35,703 bases of DNA from Candidatus Blautia equi (GTDB lineage Bacteria > Bacillota > Clostridia > Lachnospirales > Lachnospiraceae): NCBI GenBank assembly GCA_018064695.1, contig JAGHUU010000184.1, forward strand, positions 1-35,703, written 5' to 3'. Below the pieces are notes generated by a model. The model saw only the letters and a program-made list of their open reading frames with translations, was not told where the DNA came from and searched no databases. The position numbers and the translations under genes were made by a program. How positions within the stretch are numbered: the first letter of the stretch is position 1; each line of letters begins with the position of its first letter. Shown here piece by piece: positions 26,851 to 31,894 of the stretch.

Positions 26851-26901
26851 ATTATATCTGTCATATAGACACTAAACAGTTATTAAAAAGTCACTAAACA
26901 G
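26851..26901 (-). promoter_or_regulatory. adhesin promoter: three 11-bp direct repeats (26869-26901), 12-bp spacer, TATAAT (26851-26856)
   Basis: minus strand CTGTTTAGTGA CTTTTTAATAA CTGTTTAGTGT CTATATGACAGA TATAAT. Confidence 0.75.
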
Positions 26902-27306
26902 TCACTGTAATAAAAAAGTTTTCATCAGGACCTCCACCAGATCATCATCCACCAGTTTTCTGCCATCCTTAAAGAAAACTGCTGCTCTGCCGGTCCTTGG
27001 GTTGCTGTACTTATCCAGGACCTCTGCATCCCAGATCTCCGACATCCTCTTCTGTTTTTCCTCATCCAGCATAAGGTTGCGGCTCCAGTAGTCCAGATAC
27101 TGTTTTTTCATTGTCGCTTCCGATCCCCGGCTGATCAGGTCCTGCCCGGTGTCATCAAGAGGTATCTCCCGGATATATCCGGTGATCAGGTCTTTTCTGC
27201 CGTACATGTCTCTTACCTTTTCATCCGTGGAAAAAAGGATCTGCCTTAAAATGCGGGAGTTTGTGTTTTTCTTAAAACAGCTGATTCCGCATTCATCCTC
27301 GCTCAT
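26902..27306 (-). CDS. hypothetical protein
   Basis: ORF from MSEDECGISCFKK with SD GAGGAGG; no recognised family. Confidence 0.6.
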   Translation of the reverse strand: MSEDECGISCFKKNTNSRILRQILFSTDEKVRDMYGRKDLITGYIREIPLDDTGQDLISRGSEATMKKQYLDYWSRNLMLDEEKQKRMSEIWDAEVLDKYSNPRTGRAAVFFKDGRKLVDDDLVEVLMKTFLLQ

Positions 27307-27481
27307 GTTTTTTCCTCCTCTCCTCAAATCTGCATTTACTTGCATATCTTTAACTGATATAATTTTATCACTGCAAAATCTGCAGATTTGATATTTATTT
27401 CAGGAAAACAGCGGTTTATCCCCTCTTTTCCCCCATATCTCATATCAATAATGACATTTTATACATCCGGGAGCTGCAAAT

Positions 27482-28237
27482 ATGACATATCTGGAAATGG
27501 AAAAGAACTGTATTGACATTCTGCTCGCTTATCAGGAGCAGAATCATCTTTCGCAAAAGGAGCTGGCGCAGAAGCTGGAGCTTTCTGAAAACACCCTGGG
27601 CCGCATGCTGGCAGGAAAGACCCATGTTCTTGGGGATGCCCTTCTTCTTATGCACAATCTGAATAAAATGACCGGCAAAATGGCCTTTGAACTGGCAGGC
27701 ACAGATGTTGCCTATTCCCAGCGCCTGCGCATTATTCAGAAGATCAACTCCCTGCCGGAGGAATATCTGGAATCCATAGAAAAAACCATCTTTGCCATCC
27801 AGAGGGACGATCAGGACAGTCTGAATTTCAGCCCATCCACCATCCAGGAGGCCATGGACCTGCTTCAGTCCCAGTATATTAAGATCCTGAAGGTGAATCT
27901 TACGCAGGACAGCTACGAGGTTGCCATCGTCCGCCCCGACGAATGGGAGGAGCGAAAGTCCATCACTTCCAATTCCAAGATTTCCAGCTGGTTTCATGAT
28001 TTCGCGGAGAGCGATTACATGAACCCCGATGATTATGAGGACTTCACCATCTTCACCAACCTGAAAAATCTCCGTACCCATATCCGCCACACCCCGAATC
28101 TCCGCTTCAAATACCGGAGAAAAGTAAATCAGTCCTATCAGGATGTAGTCATGGACATCATCCGTGCCGACCAGCCGGATACCACAGATCAGATCGTTAT
28201 GCTGTACATCCGTGTTGCGGAAACGCTTTATGAATAA
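27482..28237 (+). CDS. XRE-type HTH regulator with possible PAS-like C-terminal domain
   Basis: QKELAQKLELSENTLGRMLAGKTHVLGDALLLMHNLNKMTG helix-turn-helix; C-term NPDDYEDF...FKYRRKVNQSYQDVVMDIIRAD...QIVMLYIRV. Confidence 0.7.
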   Translation: MTYLEMEKNCIDILLAYQEQNHLSQKELAQKLELSENTLGRMLAGKTHVLGDALLLMHNLNKMTGKMAFELAGTDVAYSQRLRIIQKINSLPEEYLESIEKTIFAIQRDDQDSLNFSPSTIQEAMDLLQSQYIKILKVNLTQDSYEVAIVRPDEWEERKSITSNSKISSWFHDFAESDYMNPDDYEDFTIFTNLKNLRTHIRHTPNLRFKYRRKVNQSYQDVVMDIIRADQPDTTDQIVMLYIRVAETLYE

Positions 28238-28324
28238 GAGAAAATGAAACATCGGGGACAGGGACCTGGTCCATTTTGATTTCAAAATTGGACCAGGTTC
28301 CTGTCCCCGATGTTTCATTTTCTC
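28238..28324. repeat. REP-like long inverted repeat / bidirectional terminator between convergent genes
   Basis: about 42-bp arms GAGAAAATGAAACATCGGGGACAGGGACCTGGTCCATTTTGA with very few mismatches to the opposite arm. Confidence 0.9.
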
Positions 28325-28332
28325 TATAATAT

Positions 28333-29085
28333 TCAGACAAACTCACTCCAGGTGTACTGCTTCATATATTCACCCGGATAGCGTCCGGAATTCTTTTTCT
28401 TCCATTCATAATAGTCACACTCGATCTGGTCTGTATTCAGTCCAAGGCCGGCTCTCTGTTTGCAGATGATATCGGCACATCCGTATTTTTCCAGTGTGTC
28501 AAAAAGATCTTTTCGAATCTTTTTATAGTAGGATTCGTGTCCCAGATCATCCTCCCAGAGATATGTGATCAGTTCCTGATTGGAACACACAGCGCCGCGG
28601 GCGTGAACCAGATATGCCAGCAGTTCCTTTGTTTTACTGCTGCCAAATTCTATTGGCGCACCATTTATGAAGGCTTCAAAGTAACCAAAGCACTGTACCC
28701 GCACCTTCTTTTCCACCTTGGTCTCTATTGGTCTTCGCAGGTGCTTCAGTTCCTCCTCGATCTGTGCCGCATCCACAGGCTTTGTCACATAACCGTTGCA
28801 GCGGACCTCCCGGAAGGCCTCTGAAATATAGTCATCATAGCTGGTACAGAAGATCACATTTAAGCCCGGATCTATTTTCATCAGCTCTTTGGCCAGCTCC
28901 AGGCCGTCCATACCTCTCATACGTATATCAAGAAATGCCACATCCACATCATTCTCAGAGGCAAAATCCAGCGCTTCCGATGCTTTTCGGAAGCTGTAAA
29001 TGCTGGAAGTGGGTGCCGCCTCTTCTATGGCACTTACCAGTGCACCCAGCATCAGTTTTTCATCATCAACAGCCAGAATATTCAT
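28333..29085 (-). CDS. response regulator with SARP-like winged-helix output domain
   Basis: receiver MNILAVDDEKLMLGAL...VDVAFLDIRMRGMDGLELA...YVTKPVD; output VQCFGYFEAFINGAPIEFGSSKTKELLAYLVHARGAVCSNQELITYLWED. Confidence 0.88.
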   Translation of the reverse strand: MNILAVDDEKLMLGALVSAIEEAAPTSSIYSFRKASEALDFASENDVDVAFLDIRMRGMDGLELAKELMKIDPGLNVIFCTSYDDYISEAFREVRCNGYVTKPVDAAQIEEELKHLRRPIETKVEKKVRVQCFGYFEAFINGAPIEFGSSKTKELLAYLVHARGAVCSNQELITYLWEDDLGHESYYKKIRKDLFDTLEKYGCADIICKQRAGLGLNTDQIECDYYEWKKKNSGRYPGEYMKQYTWSEFV

Positions 29086-30545: not shown

Positions 30546-30607
30546 GATCTGTTCCTCCAGGATTTATTCGCGGTCTGATTATAACACATTTTTTCTCAGG
30601 CCACCAG

Positions 30608-30641
30608 AAAAGGGCCACTCCTGCACGGGGAATGGCCCTCA
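30608..30641 (-). terminator. rho-independent terminator downstream of TPR gene
   Basis: minus strand AGGGCCATTCCCCGTGCAGGAGTGGCCCTTTTC. Confidence 0.7.
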
Positions 30642-30645
30642 GGTT

Positions 30646-31779
30646 TTATTCTTCCGGTTTCACAGATGCTTCCAGATCTGCAATATAAAGGTCTTCCTCT
30701 TCCATCGCTTTATAGATTTGTGCTCTCGTATAATAGCTCTGGGATAAGTTATATCCGTTTTCGATACAGGCAGTCATATCTGCCAGCGCGTTTTCGTAAT
30801 CCTCTTTGTCTGTATAGCAGGATGCTCTGTAGGTTCTGGCCTCATCTGCAAGTGGGGATTCCGCATCGATCAGTGCGGTCAGCTCCTCCAGTGCGCCGTC
30901 TGCATCTCCCTGACTCATAAGGCAGAGGGCAATGTTTCTGGTGCTCTCATCCTGATAGCTCTCTTTCTCACGGCTGGTCTTATAATTCTCAATAGCAGCC
31001 TCATAATCTTCTTTCATCATTTTGCAGACAGCCAGATTATAGTAGATTCCATCGTAATCCCATCCGGCCTCCAGACCTTCTGCAAATCCGGCTTCCGCCT
31101 CGTCATAGCTGCCTTTATTCAGCATACAGATAAGGCTGTTGTAGGATGCTGCCTGTGAGTAGTCCTCGTTCTCCATGCAGGAGGCAAAGTTCTCAATAGC
31201 TTTGTCATAAAGACCGATCTCCATCTGATAAAGAGCATTCTCAAAAGCAGCTTCTGTCTCGGTCACGCCGGTGGACTGGATGTAGGTTTCGTATGTCTCG
31301 GAGGCTTTGTCTGCATCTCCCATAAGCTCATAGATCTGAGCCAGAGTTCCGTCCATCTCCTGCTCACCGGTGAGCTCCATGTAAGTCTGAATGTTATCCA
31401 CTGCTGCCTCATAGTCCATCTGGTCCAGAAGGATCTGGATCTTTACAAGATAGGCATCGGAAAGGTCTGCCTGATAGGCGATGGCCTGATCCAGAGCTTC
31501 TACAGCGGAATCGGTCTCACCGTTGATGGTGTCAATACAGCCCTTTTTCAGATAAAGATCTGCCAGCAGCTCCTCGCTGACGGTATCCTCATTGCAGTAC
31601 GTAAAGCATGCATCCACATACTCCTCTGCCTTTTCATAATCACCTTTTGTGATATAGTTGGAAGCCAGTGTATAGTAGGCATCCAGCTTCTGGATCTCAT
31701 CTGTATTCAGCTCTGCGTGGGTGGTGGTTCCTGCAAGTATCATTCCGGCCATAAGGGCTAACACGATTTTTTTCTTCAT
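30646..31779 (-). CDS. secreted tetratricopeptide-repeat protein
   Basis: signal peptide MKKKIVLALMAGMILAGTTTHA-E then many 34-aa TPR-like units; ORF track start at 31908 overlaps the promoter, ATG 31779 preferred. Confidence 0.88.
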   Translation of the reverse strand: MKKKIVLALMAGMILAGTTTHAELNTDEIQKLDAYYTLASNYITKGDYEKAEEYVDACFTYCNEDTVSEELLADLYLKKGCIDTINGETDSAVEALDQAIAYQADLSDAYLVKIQILLDQMDYEAAVDNIQTYMELTGEQEMDGTLAQIYELMGDADKASETYETYIQSTGVTETEAAFENALYQMEIGLYDKAIENFASCMENEDYSQAASYNSLICMLNKGSYDEAEAGFAEGLEAGWDYDGIYYNLAVCKMMKEDYEAAIENYKTSREKESYQDESTRNIALCLMSQGDADGALEELTALIDAESPLADEARTYRASCYTDKEDYENALADMTACIENGYNLSQSYYTRAQIYKAMEEEDLYIADLEASVKPEE

Positions 31780-31843
31780 ATTTAATAACCTCTTTTCTGC
31801 GTTCTCACATAGGGAATTTATTCCCGGTCCATTGTATTGCTTT

Positions 31844-31894
31844 ATTATAATCCCCTTATGGTTACAAAACAGATACCAAACAGTCACTAAAACG
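31844..31894 (-). promoter_or_regulatory. TPR-gene promoter: three 11-bp direct repeats (31862-31894), 12-bp spacer, TATAAT (31844-31849)
   Basis: minus strand CGTTTTAGTGA CTGTTTGGTAT CTGTTTTGTAA CCATAAGGGGAT TATAAT. Confidence 0.75.

Follow-up and report, generated by a model that had tools for sequence, protein, structure and literature searches.

The 35,703-nucleotide stretch of DNA analyzed here (the window) comprises positions 1 to 35,703 of contig JAGHUU010000184.1 of Candidatus Blautia equi (assembly GCA_018064695.1), an 82%-complete draft genome of 2.1 Mb in 333 contigs, and carries on its minus strand a response regulator (RR) gene lying between two promoters of the same design, one in front of a giant secreted adhesin and the other in front of a secreted TPR protein. 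Read along the minus strand, the end of a large open reading frame (ORF) is followed by a repeat array with its TATAAT element, the TPR gene, a histidine kinase and the RR, and then by a REP-like hairpin and a convergent plus-strand gene, a short ORF, the second array with its TATAAT, and the adhesin (Table 1). According to Pfam, the adhesin contains 14 FctA/Spy0128-like isopeptide domains, one pAdhesive_15 domain and two SpaA domains; its N-terminal stretch, which precedes the FctA, ice-binding-like adhesive and SpaA domains, is acidic and rich in Glu and Ala.

Table 1. Features around the two repeat arrays, in minus-strand order (window coordinates).
Feature	Position	Strand	Basis
Large repetitive surface-type ORF, open at contig end; lies shortly upstream of the array at the TPR promoter	32000-35701		minus-strand order
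Weak fourth unit TCAGAGAGTGT, TPR promoter	31895-31905	-	sequence
Predicted operator of the TPR promoter, three units CGTTTTAGTGA/CTGTTTGGTAT/CTGTTTTGTAA	31862-31894	-	sequence
-10 element TATAAT, TPR promoter	31844-31849	-	sequence
Secreted TPR protein, 377 aa, first gene past the second array; predicted target	30646-31779	-	Pfam TPR families, orthologs
Sensor histidine kinase, LytS/YpdA-like His_kinase PF06580 + HATPase_c; predicted partner of the RR	29115-30545	-	Pfam, neighborhood in homologs
RR: receiver, SARP/EmbR-like winged helix, truncated tail of ~35 residues; predicted binder of both arrays	28333-29085	-	
HTH-type gene, convergent to the RR	27482-28237	+	
147-aa ORF	26902-27345		minus-strand order
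Weak fourth (upstream) unit TATTACAGTGA, adhesin promoter; overlaps the 3' end of the 147-aa ORF	26902-26912	-	sequence
Predicted operator of the adhesin promoter, three units CTGTTTAGTGA/CTTTTTAATAA/CTGTTTAGTGT; third unit over the -35 position	26869-26901	-	sequence
-10 element TATAAT, adhesin promoter	26851-26856	-	sequence
Giant secreted adhesin, 3309 aa; predicted target	16869-26798	-	ORF call, Pfam

At both promoters, three 11-bp direct repeats are followed by 12 nt and a TATAAT, matching base for base what an original prediction from the letters alone had described, including the weak fourth unit that precedes each array. That prediction had also called the promoter architecture identical, which holds; the array sequences agree at 23 of 33 positions and are similar only. 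Both can be re-framed as four heptamers with 4-nt spacers (CAGTGAC/TAGTGAC/TAATAAC/TAGTGTC for the adhesin and GAGTGTC/TAGTGAC/TGGTATC/TTGTAAC for the TPR gene) that end 11 nt before the -10 element; by type, the units are AGTGAC, GTGTC and GTAAC, and the arrays are of the GTGAC/GTAAC/GTATC type. The CTGTTT of the third unit sits 17 bp upstream of the -10, in the position of a -35 element, and because it matches TTGACA at just two of six bases, both promoters should need an activator.

Arrays of this kind are rare. Among all TATAAT-like sites in the window and in 40 regions around homologs of the RR (about 9,300 site/register tests), the two window sites showed the highest three-unit self-similarity, and 300 simulated windows of the same trinucleotide make-up contained no array where the real window has two. 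Genome-wide scans were made as pattern searches. With at most three mismatches allowed, the three-unit pattern matched only these two arrays in the window's own draft genome, against one match for a reversed control; a third match with three mismatches (C288), inside overlapping ORFs, was unconvincing and was set aside. A search of 264 Gb of genome contigs, from which near relatives of the window genome were perhaps excluded, for two units plus TATAAT returned three matches and no convincing promoter of this kind, nor was the literal consensus found elsewhere in that collection. One of the three lay inside a coding sequence, one by a terminator and one in an intergenic spacer, and all were judged to be chance. 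A family-wide search for the literal motif likewise gave mostly chance matches, among them one (L095 in G234) that adjoins a tRNA-like region. In 65 congeneric genomes, the number of matches to two units plus a -10 was about that of the reversed control, yet they included the first real relatives, in G030, G034 and G038.

The RR has a well-matched receiver domain (Response_reg, 76 bits) whose phospho-acceptor D53 falls in a nearly invariant column. Its C-terminal match to Trans_reg_C is partial and below the Pfam cut-off (23.3 vs. 26.2 bits, 33 of 77 positions), and this family was matched at all in six of 16 homologs. When a profile of 13 homologous C-terminal domains was compared with the PDB, the best match was EmbR (2fez, E = 4e-5, 113 of 132 positions), with AfsR weaker (8hvr, 0.07), and the RR possesses an OmpR-type winged helix of the SARP/EmbR type. 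The prediction of a SARP-like output domain is thus borne out for the winged helix but not for the BTA domain that defines SARPs: the RR stops about 35 residues past the winged helix, in a tail that keeps the conserved pattern CD.Y......Y.GEYM.QY.W.E, and none of 16 family members matched BTAD in Pfam. Since the BTA domain of AfsR (residues 120-270, about 150 aa in seven helices) holds sigma region 4 and alphaCTD, any contacts of the RR with RNA polymerase would have to differ from those of AfsR, the receiver domain or the loops of the winged helix being candidates. A LytTR domain is absent from the RR. The kinase is of the His_kinase/LytS type, and similar kinases adjoin many homologs of the RR; the literature searched held no account of this RR family or its operators. 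Single-sequence AlphaFold2 gave a poor model of the RR (mean pLDDT 42), which was set aside.

SARP operators consist of direct repeats 11 or 22 bp apart, the 3' repeat lying 8 bp from the -10 (PMC10936776). Both window promoters have repeats so spaced, a poor -35, and a gap to the -10 of 8 to 11 nt depending on where the edge of the repeat is drawn, and by its predicted fold and operator the RR is SARP-like, without being a strict member of that family.

To place the arrays in a wider context, we gathered about 180 relatives of the RR from Lachnospiraceae-like and other Clostridia genomes. Across the family, such RRs are present in 114 of 299 genomes; the best relative is 46% identical, and the comparison yielded no close relative having an orthologous adhesin promoter. 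Since literal motif searches elsewhere had failed, the comparative test dropped the sequence and kept the geometry. A strict scan for KNGTNAC-N4-KNGTNAC-N11-TATAAT over 533 kb (the first 40 congeneric RR loci and the window) returned four matches, all with a spacer of 11 and none with 10 or 12. The TPR promoter of the window accounts for one of them; the other three are intergenic sites directly 3' of an RR homolog that precede a giant secreted protein (G052), a pseudopilin-type gene (G027) and a surface-operon gene (G030). In G052 (L057/L241) the RR homolog lies directly upstream of a secreted protein of 6066 aa, with GTGTAAC-N4-TTGTAAC-11-TAAAAT in between.

Inspection by eye, followed by statistics, showed that 11-bp direct repeats, perfect or nearly so, adjoin a -10 immediately past the 3' end of the RR gene in many homologs, with repeat sequences that differ from one homolog to the next (e.g., TGTTGGACATT, TTGTTGTCCAT, TGGTTACGGTT, TTGTTGCGCTT, TTATTGCAACT and GTAACACTTTT). 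Direct repeats identical at eight or more of nine positions, counted over the first 200 nt past the RR on its 3' side, occurred at a separation (lag) of 11 in 31 of 113 loci, vs. about four loci for each other lag from 5 to 33; in control regions upstream of other genes, 31 of 562 had lag-11 repeats (Fisher P = 1.3e-10). Held-out loci from the family and from other Clostridia gave 20 of 66 at lag 11 vs. about two. With repeats tied to a -10 at fixed distance, lag 11 appeared in 38 of 178 loci and nine other lags in zero to two, and the corresponding controls yielded none of 181 inside the RR gene and two of 173 further downstream. No excess at lag 22 was seen in the homologous loci. When aligned, the units keep the register first proposed: ahead of the -10, positions -20 to -14 hold a T-rich core and G(T)T, and a TG is often seen one base before the -10. 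Some of the arrays called at 7/9 identity are false. The paralog of the RR in the window's own genome (contig 23; helix QKQLDV, for which the GGAC class is expected) has no array 3' of its gene. As to conservation of the arrays in relatives, on which the original prediction had staked its reading, period, position and pairing with an RR are conserved; orthologous promoters do not share the exact consensus, which, on a literal reading of that prediction's own condition for refutation, counts against it.

Two further arrangements were seen among these loci. In three genera (L209, L220 and L235) a Spo0A-like gene directly follows an RR homolog with helix NLCSK or SLCSK, and a weak period-11 array separates the two genes. 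Around position 1500 of L141 (G034) and L145 (G038), ECF sigma-factor genes are preceded by period-11 arrays of the GTTAC/GTTAG type with an equally spaced TATAAT, and the arrays at L141 agree with the operator class of G034's own RR (L077), suggesting unlinked targets.

Operator similarity also followed the identity of the DNA-binding domains (Mantel r = 0.41, P = 1e-4 for 31 loci; r = 0.21, P = 0.0008 for all 46), with P values that the relatedness of the RRs makes optimistic; equally long flanks, as a control, showed no correlation with the DNA-binding domain (r = 0.01, P = 0.42). Helices of the form QK(Q/Y)LDVIIRSL go with (G/T)TGGAC or GATGGAC units, and the close variant L068 carries an array of this kind 14 nt ahead of its own RR gene; NQT-type helices go with GTCC/GTAC units, and SLCRMT/SLYRVT helices with GGTTAC/GGTAAC units. 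The window RR, whose recognition helix reads ESYYKKIRKDLFDTL, falls in the class SY(L/Y/M)...D(L/I/F), which, drawn post hoc, has GTNAC operators in six of eight cases vs. five of 38 for all others (Fisher P = 0.001); at L203, one of its negatives, GTGAC units are visible and were missed by the array-edge cut-off of the count. The predicted operators of the window, being of GTGAC/GTAAC type, fit this class. Orthologs of the TPR gene in two other species (G056 and G058) have period-11 arrays of GGAC type upstream, so that control of this gene by an RR of this kind appears to have been retained while the operator changed, and G056 carries an RR of the matching helix class (L069). Across the loci compared, the architecture is conserved and the predicted operators co-diverge with their regulators.

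We therefore consider it likely that both arrays are operators of the RR and that it controls the adhesin and TPR genes, as first proposed, by activating them together; the pairing of period-11 repeats with RRs of this family and their co-variation with the DNA-binding domain support this indirectly but strongly, as does the placement of both arrays, the only ones of their kind in 2.1 Mb, within 3 kb of the RR gene. The SARP-style interpretation of the operators likewise gains from the homologous RRs, which have period-11 repeats at equal distance from the -10 immediately 3' of their own genes. Upon a signal, the neighboring kinase would phosphorylate the RR, which would then stack head-to-tail on the tandem units, with one unit to each helical turn and three or four units at each promoter. 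Of the bound protomers, those downstream would cover the position of the missing -35, adjoin the -10 and recruit RNA polymerase, so that the giant adhesin and the secreted TPR protein would be switched on together, possibly with read-through into the kinase and regulator genes.

Several points weigh against this assignment, the case for which is built entirely from sequence. Neither window array lies immediately 3' of the RR, one being 1.4 kb downstream of it and the other 2.8 kb upstream, and the adhesin array is more similar to itself at lag 22 than at lag 11. A recognizable array stands 3' of the RR in just 21-30% of homologs, so many of these RRs must act elsewhere. Across all homologs, a rank test of similarity to the window operators against relatedness to the window RR was not significant (Spearman ~0), so it is mainly their position, together with the rule seen in the family, that ties the arrays to this RR. 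Finally, the draft, being only 82% complete, may lack further regulators and arrays.

The strongest alternative, which we regard as unlikely, is that the arrays are operators of another OmpR/PhoB/WalR-type RR encoded elsewhere in the genome, as such winged-helix regulators also bind heptamers with a 4-bp spacer upstream of the -10. The consensus of B. subtilis WalR is TGTWAH-N5-TGTWAH, which some homolog operators (GTGTAAC-N4-TTGTAAC) resemble. The geometry given for M. tuberculosis PhoP (PMC4832192), 7-bp direct repeats with a 4-bp spacer, is equal to that of the window, and the relation between operators and RRs does not single out the window RR. Yet the lag-11 excess is bound to the region 3' of these particular RR genes, operator sequence co-varies with the DNA-binding domain of this family, and the genome's only two arrays flank the RR in question. 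A LytTR regulator, the alternative that the original prediction itself had raised, would bind ACTGTTTAG, which appears a second time, 22 bp away, in the adhesin array and agrees with the LytTR half-site consensus at eight of nine positions; LytTR pairs, however, usually lie upstream of the -35 instead of replacing it, the TPR array matches itself best at 11 bp, the homologous loci favor lag 11 with no excess at 22, and the draft genome encodes a single LytTR protein, unlinked on contig 30, all of which renders this explanation highly improbable. Least credible is that the T-rich repeats are chance or AT-rich promoter texture, or that their agreement at 23 positions reflects two recently duplicated promoters without regulatory meaning, given the empty simulations, the lack of a convincing promoter among the three matches in 264 Gb, and the unrelated flanks of the two arrays.

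If the RR does act on both arrays, a regulator, an operator and a mechanism can be offered for the expression of giant adhesins of gut commensals, a subject on which the literature searched had little to offer. In broader terms, Clostridia probably harbor a large paralogous family of BTA-less regulators with receiver and winged-helix domains, each paired with a neighboring promoter whose -35 is replaced by tandem 11-bp operators that co-diverge with the recognition helix, forming a readable specificity code from which operators and targets could be predicted. Targets so predicted would often be giant surface proteins, pilins and exported proteins, and in three loci spo0A; a simple rule would link many uncharacterized RRs of Clostridia to a recognizable operator, namely to search the sequence immediately 3' of the regulator gene for 11-bp repeats adjoining a -10.

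Two other features of the window deserve mention. The ORF at the contig end is a second very large repetitive ORF, whose own promoter falls off the contig. Between the RR and the convergent gene, the hairpin (28237-28325) is REP-like, with 41-nt arms that are 95% complementary; its core, GGGGACAGGNACCTGGTCC, has 15 copies in the 2.1-Mb genome, and the reversed core never occurs. The repeat is also seen at 15258-15276 and is possibly a dispersed repeat of the RAYT/REP type.

Among known systems, the RR invites comparison with three. Like SARP/AfsR of Streptomyces and EmbR of M. tuberculosis, it has an OmpR-type winged helix (closest to that of EmbR), and its predicted operators share with those of SARPs the 11-bp direct repeats over the -35 region, adjoining the -10 of a promoter with a poor -35. 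Unlike SARPs, it has an N-terminal receiver domain and a kinase partner, the BTA domain that contacts polymerase through sigma region 4 and alphaCTD in AfsR is cut to a short tail, and the family lies outside the actinomycetes, with no link to antibiotic genes seen. With the OmpR/PhoB family (M. tuberculosis PhoP, PhoB and WalR) it shares the receiver and winged helix, tandem heptamers with 4-bp spacers and, as predicted here, head-to-tail binding, but it differs in its partial, sub-threshold Trans_reg_C match, in the conserved tail ending Y.GEYM.QY.W.E, and in having a LytS-type rather than a HisKA kinase as partner. LytTR response regulators (AgrA, VirR and ComE) resemble it in the kind of kinase (His_kinase PF06580), in direct repeats near the promoter and, as predicted here, in the control of surface or virulence genes; the RR departs from them in lacking the LytTR domain, in a period of 11 instead of 21-22, and in an array that takes the place of the -35. 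Of these likenesses, that to SARPs raises the question of how a protein lacking the domain with which SARPs contact RNA polymerase would activate a SARP-style promoter.

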